This document shows, one piece after another, positions 3,041-57,235 of a stretch of 64,000 nucleotides of DNA. Origin of the DNA: Piscicola geometra (taxonomy: Eukaryota; Annelida; Clitellata; Hirudinida; Piscicolidae); the NCBI GenBank assembly GCA_943735955.1, contig OX030955.1, forward strand, positions 14,782,083 to 14,846,082, written 5' to 3'. A model generated the notes under the pieces. The model saw only the letters and a program-made list of their open reading frames with translations, had not been told where the DNA came from and made no database searches. The position numbers were made by a program, and so were the translations under genes. Each line of letters opens with the position of its first letter. Within the stretch, counting starts at the first letter, position 1.

Positions 3041-3460
3041 TGCAGTGGTGGTGGTGGTGATGATGATGATGCAGTAGTGGTGGTGGTGATGATGATGATG
3101 CAGTGGTGGTGGTGGTGGTGGTGATGATGCAGTGGTGGTGGTGGTGATGATGCAGTGGTGGTGGTGGTGATGATGATGATGCAGTGGTGGTGGTGGTGAT
3201 GATGCAGTGGTGGTGGTGGTGATGATGCAGTGGTGGTGGTGGTGATGATGCAGTGGTGGTGGTGGTGATGATGCAGTGGTGGTGGTGGTGATGATGATGA
3301 TGCAGTGGTGGTGGTGGTGATGATGATGATGCAGTGGTGGTGGTGGTGATGATGCAGTGGTGGTGGTGGTGATGATGATGATGCAGTGGGGGTGGTGGTG
3401 GTGATGCAGTGGTGGTGGTGTTGGTGATGATGATGCAGTGGTGGTGATGATGATGATGGG
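3041..3460. repeat. CCACCACTGCATCATCATCA minisatellite
   Basis: Irregular repeats of GTGGTGGTGGTGATGATGCA lie in the GFAT intron directly downstream of exon 10. On the gene strand the array starts about 15 nt inside the donor. Confidence 0.9.
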
Positions 3461-3470
3461 ACATATGAAC

Positions 3471-55500: not shown

Positions 55501-57235
55501 CACAAGACAAAATGGCACAAAATGAAACACTGTGAAAACTTATTAGATTAACAAAATCCTATTTGAAATCTGAACACTCTAGTGTTTATGTATGTGCCGG
55601 AGTACTAACTTAGCGAGATGCATGTGTGTTTGCTCTTGTTCGATCTGCTTCTTCAATAGACCCACATACTTGACCAACAGAGATATAGCCTCACCCATCT
55701 TCAACTCCTGCATCATATGTTAATACAGTGTTTCAATCATAAACGCTAGAATGTGAAGGCCCCAATCATTGGGATAACAAGAGACTGAGAATGAAGCATG
55801 CGTTTTAATTTCTTCATTCAATACAATCGCATAAAAGCCTATTTTTAAATGCTTTATTTTTATAGAAAAGGTTATTGTTTTGTTAGACACCGACTCAGAA
55901 CTAGGCCAGCTTGCTAAGGTCGTTAAATATTTGGAAGCAGGAGATGGACATTCTTATACACATACATTTCACGTTTGAATGCAAGCGATCAAAGAGAAGA
56001 GGTAGTAGCGAAAGCAACCTGGTGGACAGCTCCGTAGAGTTCCGAGCAGGAAGACATTCTGTGGACGGAGGTTTCAAGGTAAGAGAGTTGGCACTGGAGC
56101 TGCTGCAGATGCTGACAACGTTCTTGTTCTGTGCCTTTGTGACATGCGAAGGTCTGTGTGTGGGGAGGTTGGTAGGGAATTTGGTGTGGGGGTCGGTGGG
56201 GAAGTTGGTGGGGAGGTTGGTGGGGAGGTTGGTGGGAAGGTTGGTGGGGAGGTTGGTGGGGAGGTTGGTGGGGAAGTTGGTGGGGAGGTTGGTGGGGAGG
56301 TTGGTGGGGAGGTTGGTGGGGAAGTTGGTGGGGAGGTTGGTGGGGAGGTTGGTGGGGAGGTTGGTGGGGAAGTTGGTGGGGAGGTTGGTGGGGAGGTTGG
56401 TGGGGAGGTTGGTGGGGAAGTTGGTGGGGAGGTTGGTGGGGAGGTTGGTGGGAAGGTTGGTGGGGAGGTTGGTGGGGAGGTTGGTGGGGAGGTTGGTGGG
56501 AAGGTTGGTGGGGAGGTTGGTGGGAAGGTTGGTGGGGAAGTTGGTGGGGAGGTTGGTGGGGAGGTTGGTGGGAAGGTTGGTGGGGAGGTTGGTGGGGAGG
56601 TTGGTGGGGAGGTTGGTGCGGAGGTTGGTGGGGAGGTTGGTGAGGAAGTTGGTGGGGAGGTTGGTGGGGAAGTTGGTGGGAAGGTTGGTGGGGAGGTTGG
56701 TGGGGAGGTTGGTAGGGAGGTTGGTGGGGAGGTTTGTGGTGGGGAGGTTGGTGGGGAGGTTGGAAGGGAGATTTTGGGGAAGTTGGTGGGGAGGTTGGGG
56801 AGCACATACACATATTCAACTAACTGTTGCCAACAATTTTTTTCTTATCCCACTGACCTCCAGAGCAGTCCTTAACTCGTCTAGCTGGTTCTGCACATTC
56901 GCCTCACTCACCTCCCTTCCTCTGTACTGGTTCTCGAACCTTTGGTTGTTGCATATGAAATCATTTAATTCAAAGGTGTGAGTATCATTTCTTTTTCAGG
57001 CACAGCACAAGACGTCATCCAATCAATCAAATGTCAATCAAATAAATATATATAGCGCTTTTTTAATAAATTCATCAATATAATTTTGCATAACTTAATA
57101 TTTCAATGTTTGGAACGGTTGAATTGTTAAAAAAATTCGTTGGTTGAAATCTTGATTATCAAAAAATCGTATGCACCTCTTGGTGACGGTCCACTGGTCA
57201 GTTTCGAATGCCAGCACGAAGGCTTCCACGCTGTC
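37419..57235 (-). CDS. IRAG/LRMP (MRVI1)-family tail-anchored coiled-coil protein, 3' part
   Basis: Exons (minus strand): 57235-57177, 56939-56858, 56153-56019, 55707-55610, 45483-45406, 37572-37419, with a possible further 28-nt exon at 57372-57345. They join in phase to 201 residues plus stop. [31 protein letters not shown] and [17 protein letters not shown] match the coiled-coil core of inositol-trisphosphate-receptor-associated proteins (IRAG1/MRVI1, IRAG2/LRMP). The last exon is basic and then hydrophobic ([20 protein letters not shown]), leaving nine residues: an ER/nuclear-envelope tail anchor, as in that family. The role in IP3-receptor calcium release is inferred from the family. The N-terminal exons are not seen and should lie beyond base 64000 or be unrecognised. 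Confidence 0.75.
37935..38119 (-). mobile_element. SINE-1, full copy
   Basis: On the minus strand it begins GGGTGAACGGGTAGCTGAGT (A box) and has GGTTCAAGTGC (B box). A body follows, ending TATACGCCACTATAATAATG, with an ATT tail. This is a tRNA-derived SINE. Confidence 0.82.
38120..39479. other. AT-rich intronic sequence
   Basis: Bases 38590-38745 are an inverted copy of 17427-17560. Bases 38755-38940 hold a 16-bp minisatellite. The rest is unrecognised, with a short GATGATG run at 39200. Confidence 0.5.
38755..38940. repeat. 16-bp minisatellite GATAAAAAGTCTTCAG
   Basis: About 11 copies with small changes. Confidence 0.95.
39480..40662 (+). mobile_element. RTE-like LINE, decayed
   Basis: RT remnants in shifting frames: [34 protein letters not shown] (catalytic FADD), then the C-terminal tail GISYLEH and [20 protein letters not shown]. 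It ends ACGGGCATGATGATGATGG. Same family as 5968-6479. Confidence 0.85.
40663..41699. other. AT-rich intronic sequence
   Basis: Nothing coding or repetitive recognised. Confidence 0.4.
41700..42663 (-). mobile_element. L2-like LINE 3' fragment, second copy, with nested insertions
   Basis: It is homologous to 18760-19600 (GCAGGTGGAAGGGCATTCCA; CTGACTGTAGACGATTTCTT). It is interrupted at 41846-41899 by another LINE 3' end with (ATCA)n and at about 42277-42432 by SINE-2. Confidence 0.85.
42277..42432 (-). mobile_element. SINE-2, copy 1
   Basis: The minus strand shows GGGGATGGCTTAG (A box region), AGTTCGAATCCTTG (B box) and a body ACCTAGTGTATATGATGCGG. It is partly deleted in the head relative to 48470-48648. 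Confidence 0.75.
42664..42757 (+). mobile_element. hAT (AGCTGTTCCACGA family) right-end remnant
   Basis: It aligns with the last ~95 bp of the copy ending at 53252 and ends TAATCGTGGGACAACT. Confidence 0.6.
42877..43124. mobile_element. Small MITE with TATAGGGGGAGG ends
   Basis: The left end is TATAGGGGGAGGTTGCTCAA; the right end, reversed, is TATAGGGGAAGGATGCACAA. About 250 bp, no coding. Related ends occur at 2925, 51914 and 53597. Confidence 0.6.
43205..43945 (-). mobile_element. hAT fragment resembling GTF2IRD2-type transposases
   Basis: Minus-strand pieces: [20 protein letters not shown] then [12 protein letters not shown] (BED-like finger end), and [20 protein letters not shown] then [13 protein letters not shown] (core start). 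The 5' terminus near 43945 reads AGAGATGCACAACCCGCGGC, a typical hAT end. The C-terminal half is missing. Confidence 0.8.
43946..45383. other. AT-rich intronic sequence
   Basis: No gene. About five ACTTGATTCAAAA repeats lie at 45054-45126. Confidence 0.45.
45406..45483 (-). CDS. Possible IRAG-like exon e
   Basis: A GC-rich 78-nt island between CACATAG and GTGAGT. In the phase dictated by exon d it reads [14 protein letters not shown], and its end phase fits the last exon. The other open frame ([14 protein letters not shown]) would need extra unseen exons. Confidence 0.5.
45490..46034. repeat. Long TG/CA microsatellite
   Basis: About 545 bp, interrupted in the first 300 bp and then pure. On the gene strand (CA)n runs to within a few bases of the exon e acceptor. 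Confidence 0.98.
46255..47130 (-). mobile_element. hAT with GGGACGGGAAC arrays, second copy (inverted)
   Basis: It shares with 22601-24104 a conserved segment ([11 protein letters not shown] reading, AAGTTTAGGACC) and the C-terminal coding remnant region near 46620-46740. One end has CGTCCCGTCCCG. More decayed than the first copy. Confidence 0.75.
47131..48424. other. AT-rich intronic sequence
   Basis: No feature recognised. GC-rich GGCGGACCCCCTCACTACCA at about 47430 resembles a transposon end, but its partner is not seen. Confidence 0.35.
48470..48648 (-). mobile_element. SINE-2, copy 2 with full tRNA-like head
   Basis: Minus strand: GCGGGGATGGCTTAGATGGT (A box), an anticodon-like loop CTTGCAA, AGTTCAAATCCC (B box), then the same body as 42277-42432, with a duplicated ATATACACTAGG block. 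Confidence 0.82.
48660..48900 (-). repeat. Unclassified interspersed repeat, copy 2
   Basis: Inverted match to 17155-17290, with about 100 extra bases between the two shared blocks. An open 76-codon frame here looks incidental. Confidence 0.55.
48901..50249. other. AT-rich intronic sequence
   Basis: No supported gene. Around 49200-49400 short minus-strand readings look like decayed coding sequence but match nothing I can name. Confidence 0.3.
50341..51468 (+). mobile_element. hAT element (AGCTGTTCCACGA family), inside SINE-1
   Basis: Flanks CTAGTAAC and CTAGTTAC (7 of 8 identical) fit the hAT rule nTnnnnAn. The plus strand near 51057-51255 keeps the dimerisation domain: [52 protein letters not shown]. 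The left part holds six 19-bp repeats TATTAACGCATTTGAAAAA. The N-terminal transposase is lost. Confidence 0.85.
50393..50505. repeat. 19-bp minisatellite TATTAACGCATTTGAAAAA
   Basis: Six near-perfect copies inside the hAT element. The AACGC core resembles the element's own subterminal AACGCGTTAA. Confidence 0.95.
51549..52942. other. AT-rich intronic sequence with a MITE end
   Basis: At 51914 GGGGAGGTTGTTAAAGATGA is the MITE left end also seen at 42877. No gene. Confidence 0.4.
52943..53252 (+). mobile_element. hAT (AGCTGTTCCACGA family) 3' end
   Basis: It encodes [20 protein letters not shown] then WLKQDV stop, followed by the end TAATCGTGGAACAGCTCT. Confidence 0.82.
53440..53597. mobile_element. 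MITE right-end fragment
   Basis: TGAGGCTACGTGTGAAAATC to CAACCTCCCCCTATA, the same right end as 43070-43124. Confidence 0.55.
53719..54509 (+). pseudogene. Conserved uncharacterised transposon-type ORF, broken
   Basis: First part (53719-54132): [62 protein letters not shown]. After stops and frameshifts the family's end is recognisable at 54318-54509: [38 protein letters not shown] recall this pair of blocks from many multi-copy, intron-poor predicted proteins of arthropods and cnidarians with no assigned function. DDE residues are not identifiable here. Confidence 0.6.
54531..55609. other. AT-rich intron downstream of IRAG-like exon d
   Basis: Patches at 54840-55240 read like decayed coding sequence, but no family is recognised. 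Confidence 0.35.
55610..55707 (-). CDS. IRAG-like exon d
   Basis: It encodes [20 protein letters not shown] then [12 protein letters not shown], matching the conserved EAI-V-(M)-K-NLK helix. The acceptor is ATGCAG and the donor AA|GTTAGT. Confidence 0.82.
56019..56153 (-). CDS. IRAG-like exon c
   Basis: It has 45 codons: [20 protein letters not shown], then [20 protein letters not shown]. This aligns with the family block ending E-M/L-(L/Y)-G-A-V-H-Q. The donor is CAG|GTTGCT. Confidence 0.82.
56160..56800. repeat. 12-bp minisatellite GGGGAGGTTGGT
   Basis: About 50 copies. On the gene strand it is CCCCACCAACCT-rich and runs to the acceptor of exon c (CCCCACACACAG). Confidence 0.97.
56858..56939 (-). 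CDS. IRAG-like exon b
   Basis: It encodes [20 protein letters not shown] then ELRTALE, a coiled coil. The donor is GAG|GTCAGT. Confidence 0.78.
57021..57070 (-). mobile_element. LINE 3' tip with (ATCA)n tail
   Basis: AATCAATCAAATGTCAATCA then TATAGCGCTTTTTTA, the same 3' end type as 14758 and 28490. Confidence 0.5.
57177..57235 (-). CDS. IRAG-like exon a
   Basis: It encodes [28 protein letters not shown] and the following KR are the family hallmark. The acceptor is ATCAG and the donor AGAG|GTGCAT. Confidence 0.8.

Follow-up and report, generated by a model that had tools for sequence, protein, structure and literature searches.

Tandem arrays of opposite type at the donors and acceptors of introns in a leech, in parallel with opposite strand composition of the intron ends

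Introns of the fish leech Piscicola geometra carry tandem arrays according to a donor/acceptor polarity that is real: GT-type arrays tend to lie at donors and AC-type arrays at acceptors, and the reverse is rare. The sense strand of the introns themselves is G/T-rich at donors and A/C-rich, instead of T-rich, at acceptors, as revealed by 132 introns. The placement of arrays by intron end most likely follows from this pre-existing, like difference in base make-up.

The window, a stretch of 64,000 nucleotides on contig OX030955.1, covers a GFAT gene, an E2F gene and a third, putative gene read by eye (IRAG-like in the first-pass annotation, whose exon numbering may differ from the numbering used here). 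According to the first-pass annotation, tandem repeats are anchored on splice sites in all three genes, with donors leading into GT-type and acceptors being preceded by CA-type arrays. Borders of GFAT introns 5, 6, 7 and 9 were taken from spliced alignment, whereas those of GFAT intron 3 and of E2F were set by eye. Arrays were called by TRF.

3040..3470 (-), GFAT donor at 3470: CATCAC-type array (type by eye) ~12 nt downstream (TRF 3040-3458)
3586..3870 (-), GFAT intron 9: (GT)n of 247 nt beginning 3 nt past the donor at 3870 (spliced alignment and array table); 19-nt AC array ending 3 nt short of the acceptor
4838..8163 (-), GFAT intron 7, 3326 nt: short array of GT type 20 nt past the donor
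8226..8543 (-), GFAT intron 6: 138-nt array of GT class (GATG-like) beginning 14 nt past the donor; AT-class array 11 nt ahead of the acceptor
8676..9451 (-), GFAT intron 5: AC-class arrays spanning from 18 nt past the donor to 2 nt short of the acceptor
9794..10049 (-), GFAT intron 3: donor side G/T-rich; AC array ending 8 nt short of the acceptor
24903..25307 (+), E2F intron 1: AC array ending 21 nt short of the acceptor
25620..25974 (+), E2F intron 3: GGT array 11 nt past the donor; AC arrays ending 3 nt short of the acceptor
26120..27644 (+), E2F intron 4: 1120-nt AC-class array with a 22-mer unit, stopping 2 nt short of the acceptor
27713..29765 (+), E2F intron 5: (ACT)n of 430 nt beginning 6 nt past the donor; AC array ending 7 nt short of the acceptor
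29851..30876 (+), E2F intron 6: 872-nt AC-class array stopping 1 nt short of the acceptor
31012..31170 (+), E2F intron 7: (GT)n of 136 nt from the donor to 23 nt short of the acceptor
31248..32575 (+), E2F exon 8 donor region: G/T-rich 46-mer array, 30 copies (TRF; donor by eye)
56160..56798 (-), putative third gene: 12-mer CAACCTCCCCAC-type array stopping ~5 nt short of an AG near 56154 (TRF; by eye)

On the acceptor side, the claim is largely borne out in the window. AC-type arrays stop 1-21 nt short of the acceptors of E2F introns 1, 3, 4, 5 and 6 and of GFAT introns 3, 5 and 9, and the array of the putative third gene likewise precedes an AG, a candidate acceptor. On the donor side, it stands in part: GT-type arrays follow the GFAT donor at 3870 and the donors of E2F introns 3 and 7 and of E2F exon 8, but counterexamples are provided by the (ACT)n of E2F intron 5, by the arrays of GFAT intron 5, which fit at the acceptor side, and by the CATCAC-type array at the GFAT donor at 3470, whose acceptor was not found. 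In addition, the GT array of E2F intron 7 reaches near the acceptor, which counts against the claim. TRF detected no array in E2F intron 2 and GFAT intron 4. The window confirms the claim in part. The donor side is more G+T-rich than the acceptor side in 14 of 16 measured window introns. Separately, stop-free arrays fuse exons into long false open frames of up to 1396 aa, which may mislead gene prediction. The open reading frame at 29107-29820 yielded no match in a PDB search.

Outside the window, polarity was assessed in 132 introns that were defined by homology at 22 loci for dyneins and kinesins of the same genome (171 Mb). Twenty-three arrays have an edge at most 6 nt from the donor, and 18 of these were GT-type and none AC-type; among the 22 that come as close to the acceptor, 19 were AC-type and none GT-type. 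Sorted by the nearer intron end, GT arrays divide 31 to 1 between donor and acceptor as compared to 9 to 31 for AC arrays (Fisher p 4e-11), and the nine AC arrays nearer the donor all keep more than 20 nt away from it. AC-type coverage is 0 across the first 20 nt past donors and peaks near acceptors, while GT coverage is 0 across the last 30 nt ahead of acceptors and climbs to 0.17 at 160-250 nt. Hence, arrays abut splice sites in a class-specific manner, and wrong-type arrays are scarce near each end in the sample. U2AF introns too include donors closely trailed by wrong-type arrays, these being AC-, ACT- or CT-type across the window and U2AF introns.

Could gene models or splice-site weights have generated this pattern artificially? 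The spliced aligner imposes GT-AG, so that GT and AG termini are true by construction in aligned introns, and the main intron set was filtered by splice-site strength, which removed 43 weak donors and 6 weak acceptors from 238 introns. However, in a rerun with splice-site weights off, polarity was retained in 159 of 187 introns (p 3e-24); in the weighted set, 21 of the 22 loci display it. Moreover, pattern counts over the whole genome, a second line of testing in which no gene models were used, agree. (CA)n runs directly into GG 690 times as compared to 77 for the mirror image, whereas the neutral-flank controls TT (349 vs 319) and TG (516 vs 478) differ ~1.1-fold. Similarly, (A/C)AG ahead of (GT)n occurs 325 times and GA(A/C) 74 times; past (GT)n, (A/C)AG still has a slight lead over GA(A/C) (147 vs 119), which counts against a clean separation by intron end. 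(GT)n ahead of CAGG was counted 20 times and its control 7 times. An artefact is therefore hardly conceivable, and beyond the window there is strong support both for strand polarity and for the abutting of arrays by class.

Composition polarity was present in 115 of the 132 introns and absent in 17. The donor-side pattern is roughly AG/GTG-GTGTG, and the acceptor side consists of a C/A tract ending in ACAG. When arrays were masked, 73 of 91 measurable introns remained polar. Forty-five of the 132 introns lack any array; when measured, 38 of these 45 proved polar. Array-free introns thus share the polarity, indicating that arrays follow an intron-wide composition. Transcription-wide strand bias was rejected by inference as a cause, because the sign flips inside one intron. 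In most of the sampled introns, a T-rich polypyrimidine tract before the acceptor is missing: positions -20 to -5 comprise 24% T, 36% C, 31% A and 9% G, and at least 8 T of 16 are present in 14 of the 132 introns, at least 12 C+T in 22 and at least 12 A+C in 62. Branch-point-like motifs exhibited no clear positional peak in these introns. That the tract is missing because U2AF2 was lost is rejected, as two U2AF2 loci are present. Each is a set of colinear exon matches with every piece under the family cut-off, and their joined RRM1-RRM2 pieces match human U2AF65 with E 8e-73 and 8e-56, respectively.

A check set beforehand asked for a peak of tandem-repeat density and for strand bias at splice junctions. 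Strand bias proved very strong, but total array density has no junction peak in the 132 introns, as determined by flank-aware TRF at two score cut-offs. Donor-side coverage amounts to 0.15 over the first 10 nt, as compared to 0.71 at 250-500 nt, the longer introns being the array-rich ones; among introns of 100-250 nt (n 77), coverage is 0.10 over the first 10 nt, ~0.2-0.28 at 10-110 nt and 0.17 thereafter. The further claim that deep introns have few arrays applies to the long, AT-rich interior of the 3.3-kb GFAT intron 7, but is at odds with the array-rich longer introns of the sample. Array coverage at intron ends nevertheless exceeds chance, reaching 0.249 (5') and 0.244 (3') within up to 100 nt as compared to 0.117 and 0.126 after dinucleotide shuffling (20 shuffles, with maxima of 0.132 and 0.150).

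Arrays might be seeded locally. That is, the splice consensus is itself a short GT- or CA-like repeat, at which slippage would begin and from which the array would grow inward, being stopped by the exon, with selection unneeded. Indeed, GT arrays begin nearer the donor (p 1.1e-6) and AC arrays end nearer the acceptor (p 1.8e-6) than other arrays do. Fifteen arrays in the 132 introns begin within 10 nt before to 3 nt after the donor, and the units of several of them include donor sequence. The 46-mer array, whose TRF start at 31248 lies inside E2F exon 8 and which crosses the donor at 31253, takes in exon bases. However, seeding does not predict the zero GT coverage ahead of acceptors, total density is not maximal at the junction, and array-free introns are polar as well, though that polarity could itself provide seeds. 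Outward growth alone, as suggested in the first-pass annotation, leaves both the missing wrong-type arrays near junctions and the polarity of array-free introns unexplained. The other option offered in that annotation was selection in favour of repeats adjoining exons, and its interpretation as a whole is supported in part. We regard local seeding as possible, but on the doubtful side.

Alternatively, arrays could be positively selected as platforms to which proteins attach, e.g. proteins that bind GU or that bind CA or C, and thereby enhance splicing. Their class-specific placement is in line with this idea, which we nonetheless judge decidedly unlikely given the array-free introns, the total density without a junction peak and the frequent absence of, or difference between, arrays at paralogous positions. 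At seven intron positions common to two dynein genes, arrays are present in both genes in four cases, in one gene in two and in neither in one, and the array unit is shared in none, which also led us to reject shared ancestry of the arrays.

In fish, base-pairing between a GT and an AC array at opposite ends of one intron has been proposed to hold the splice sites together; splicing of such introns would be independent of U2AF2, of which the leech has two loci. A donor GT array and an acceptor AC array occur together in 9 of the 132 introns, with ~5.7 expected. This association has p 0.04 in the 88 introns below 250 nt, but p 0.11 overall and p 0.75 in introns of at least 250 nt. At each of three widths (40, 60 and 90; n 129, 113 and 77), duplex energy with the own partner slightly surpasses that with permuted partners, with P 0.20, 0.07 and 0.26, respectively, and with P 0.44-0.78 in the first 53 introns; compositions of the two ends are uncorrelated (rho -0.09). 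Within error, the two ends of one intron thus pair as well as ends taken from different introns, and AC-GT bridging of the zebrafish type appears highly improbable. Introns as mobile elements with inverted ends were likewise rejected, as no own-partner excess was seen even with 40-nt ends.

The explanation that we favour starts from intron ends of opposite sense-strand composition, G+T-rich past the donor and A+C-rich ahead of the acceptor, an asymmetry that would contribute to the reading of introns by splicing. Through slippage and unequal exchange, tandem arrays would continually arise from intron sequence, and of these arrays chiefly composition-matched ones would persist close to splice sites, GT-type at donors and AC-type at acceptors. 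Selection via splicing may be the cause of this filtering, tolerance of matching arrays being most likely as judged from sequence, and some reader of the A/C tract can be envisaged, U2AF2 being encoded by two loci. Arrays would seem anchored on splice sites and halt at the exon because mainly matching arrays persist there. As a whole, the explanation that slippage produces arrays and splicing tolerates mainly matching ones is probably correct, although the donor-containing array units, which fit local seeding equally well, count against it, as do the wrong-type arrays and the 17 introns without polarity. It is conceivable, but in our view unlikely, that the splice code changed in this leech lineage, with the 3' end marked by a C/A tract in place of a pyrimidine tract and the 5' end by a G/T tract; one U2AF2 paralog might have adapted to C/A, and arrays would represent an expandable, length-variable form of the signal itself.

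A named precedent exists, contrary to the first-pass annotation: fish and lamprey introns contain AC and GT tracts (Lin et al., as reviewed in PMC7404189). GT- and AC-type tracts lie near intron ends in both systems. In the leech, donors have the GT type and acceptors the AC type. The leech differs from that account in that polarity reaches array-free introns, unit lengths are many, own-partner pairing is not above permuted and U2AF2 is present. Human introns with weak polypyrimidine tracts, which are helped by C-rich and G-rich intronic enhancers (PMC2481429), resemble the leech in acceptors lacking a strong T-rich tract and in C-rich/G-rich elements; in the human case, as outlined there, some of the introns carry the motifs upstream of the tract, whereas in the leech the skew extends over the entire intron end and includes arrays. 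Repeats near splice sites have also been linked to splicing elsewhere, namely complementary or simple repeats in alternative splicing (Lian and Garner, via PMC10027321) and minisatellites in C. elegans (PMC4039745). Those accounts concern alternative splicing and, as far as compared here, describe no donor/acceptor polarity of array type. Titles and abstract openings returned by a literature search held no description of array polarity in annelids.

If the pattern holds genome-wide, introns of this leech would be marked by strand asymmetry instead of a polypyrimidine tract, and the many arrays would constitute a natural record of which sequence splicing tolerates near each splice site and which it does not. 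The definition of intron ends under a weak polypyrimidine tract would thereby become testable in a compact genome.

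The genome searched comprises 171,024,195 bases in 66 contigs (Table 2 of the P. geometra genome note gives 69 scaffolds totalling 171.1 Mb; PMC11134150), with the window at C1:14782083-14846082, C1 being contig OX030955.1. The genes considered in the window are as follows.

Window, minus strand: GFAT gene, from spliced alignment to animal GFAT proteins
Window 25464-25580 and 30879-30989, plus strand: E2F-domain pieces, both in one gene
Near 56 kb of the window: putative third gene

Most GFAT intron borders were taken from the spliced alignment with animal GFAT proteins; those of GFAT introns 3 and 8 and of every E2F intron were placed by eye so as to keep the reading frame continuous. 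With these borders, the donor side was the more G+T-rich in 14 of the 16 window introns measured; there are exceptions and counterexamples. TRF returned 96 rows for the window, and at score 50 arrays occupied a fraction of 0.25 of the GFAT introns and 0.49 of the E2F introns, compared with 0.15 for the stretch 11.2-24.5 kb, 0.07 for 36.8-56.1 kb and 0.02 for 57-61 kb. The window also holds a minisatellite at 61498-62739 (81-bp unit with a nested inner 11-bp repeat, CCTATATGGGT) and a 15-bp array of about 85 copies at 13291-14559, across which five frames are open for about 450-500 codons. On the minus strand lie a hAT-like frame (1098-1748) and frames of 219, 445 and 468 aa (18826-22227) that by eye resemble a LINE-type retrotransposon.

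To obtain introns not picked for arrays, dynein heavy-chain and kinesin exons were located by Pfam profile. Thirteen of the 14 multi-exon dynein genes that we counted in the profile search were used (4 over 40 kb, 9 around the AAA_6 region only), together with 9 kinesin loci. Introns were called with a spliced protein aligner written for this analysis, which imposes GT-AG, using as queries same-genome open frames of 3288, 1673 and 367 aa plus the loci's mutual predictions. From 238 introns we removed 54 with weak alignment support, 43 with weak donors, 6 with weak acceptors and 3 shorter than 60 nt, leaving 132 introns at 22 loci from two main gene families; a simpler initial run had covered 4 genes and 53 introns. 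The 3288- and 1673-aa frames (L013-L014 on contig C10 and L015-L016 on C13) are nearly intronless dynein heavy chains with multi-exon paralogs in the same genome, and are possibly retrocopies or products of intron loss.

Polarity, that is a G+T-rich donor side and an A+C-rich acceptor side on the sense strand, was present in 115 of the 132 introns. Introns within one gene are not independent. Counted by locus on the set called with splice-site weights, polarity was found in 21 of 22. At 6-15 nt, the donor side was 30% G, 35% T, 19% A and 16% C and the acceptor side 32% A, 38% C, 24% T and 8% G, while flanking exons showed little skew (G+T minus A+C of -0.06 upstream of donors, 0.007 downstream of acceptors). 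Donor position +3 was G in 60%, despite aligner weights favouring A. At acceptors, position -4 was A in 55%, which gives an approximate consensus of (C/A)n ACAG|G. When the aligner ran without splice-site weights, 159 of 187 introns had the polarity; 105 introns were the same as in the weighted set. It was likewise present in 73 of 91 measurable introns after masking of arrays, and in 38 of the 45 introns containing no array.

Arrays, classed by our own cut-offs of at least 70% G+T (GT) or A+C (AC), followed the same polarity. Among 134 merged arrays, those nearer the donor were 31 GT, 9 AC, 14 AT and 19 other, and those nearer the acceptor 1 GT, 31 AC, 7 AT and 22 other (GT versus AC by nearer end, Fisher p 4e-11). 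Eighteen GT and 5 other arrays had an edge within 6 nt of the donor, and 19 AC and 3 other within 6 nt of the acceptor; within 20 nt the numbers were 25 GT, 9 other, 2 AT and no AC at donors, and 27 AC and 11 other at acceptors. The distance from the donor to the array start was smaller for GT arrays than for the rest (p 1.1e-6), and that from the array end to the acceptor was smaller for AC arrays (p 1.8e-6). AC coverage was 0 in the first 20 nt past donors. Upstream of acceptors it was 0.20 at a distance of 20-30 nt and had dropped to 0.07 by 160-250 nt; GT coverage there was absent (0) from the final 30 nt and reached 0.17 by 160-250 nt. Exon flanks were almost array-free (0.008). GT coverage showed no clear drop with distance from donors when all introns were pooled, and array coverage summed over all types showed no junction peak in the 132 introns. 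Of the two signs by which the first-pass annotation's proposal that repeats are anchored on splice sites was to be judged, strand bias is present in this sample and a peak in total density is not.

Patterns were also counted without gene models on both strands of the entire genome, with backwards patterns as controls. (CA)8 followed by GG occurred 690 times and its mirror image 77 times, as against 349 versus 319 for the neutral flank TT and 516 versus 478 for TG. (A/C)AG preceded (GT)n 325 times and GA(A/C) 74 times; following (GT)n, the counts were 147 and 119. (GT)n then CAGG, a pattern one letter longer than that of (CA)8-GG, was found 20 times, four of them at one place (control 7). Individual checks covered few genome sites. 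The aligned loci contain one (A/C)AG(GT)n site, a predicted donor, and three (CA)nGG sites (2 sense, 1 antisense), none of them at a kept acceptor, although one of the sense sites is no more than 3 nt from where a kinesin exon match begins.

We favour an explanation in which slippage would generate the arrays and splicing would tolerate chiefly those matching the composition of that intron end. The grounds are that array-free introns have the polarity too and that few arrays of the wrong type lie near either end. Local seeding at splice sites probably contributes, as several units of donor-abutting arrays contain the donor sequence. Pairing between both ends of one intron is not supported overall; introns below 250 nt show a weak association between a GT array at the donor and an AC array at the acceptor (p 0.04). 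Two dynein genes have seven intron positions in common. Arrays occurred in both genes at 4 of these, in one at 2 and in neither at 1, and at none of the seven did the genes have the same array unit; arrays therefore seem young relative to the dynein paralogs.

The nearest named thing to the leech pattern is the AC-GT intron class described in fish and lamprey (PMC7404189); the layout is alike, but the leech has a fixed orientation and shows no own-partner pairing that could be measured. The logic is also similar to that of human introns with weak polypyrimidine tracts, which are reported to employ C-rich and G-rich enhancers (PMC2481429). In titles and abstract openings, our literature search found no account of such polarity in annelids, which is weak evidence. 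U2AF2, the U2AF large subunit, has two loci, each matching human U2AF65 RRM1-RRM2.

C16:4641623-4646165: U2AF2 locus 1 (L052, L053)
C1:7088280-7096471: U2AF2 locus 2 (L054, L055)

In the alignment, RRM2 of the C16 copy has IFIACLPNYL at its RNP2-like stretch, the human sequence there being LFIGGLPNYL. The donor side was the more G+T-rich in 7 of 7 U2AF2 introns whose borders were set by eye. Stop-free intron arrays fuse exons into long open frames, e.g. 1396 aa at C1:7090329 and 500-741 aa for several kinesin exons. The 74.2% BUSCO completeness that the genome note reports for P. geometra (PMC11134150) may in part reflect such array-fused frames.
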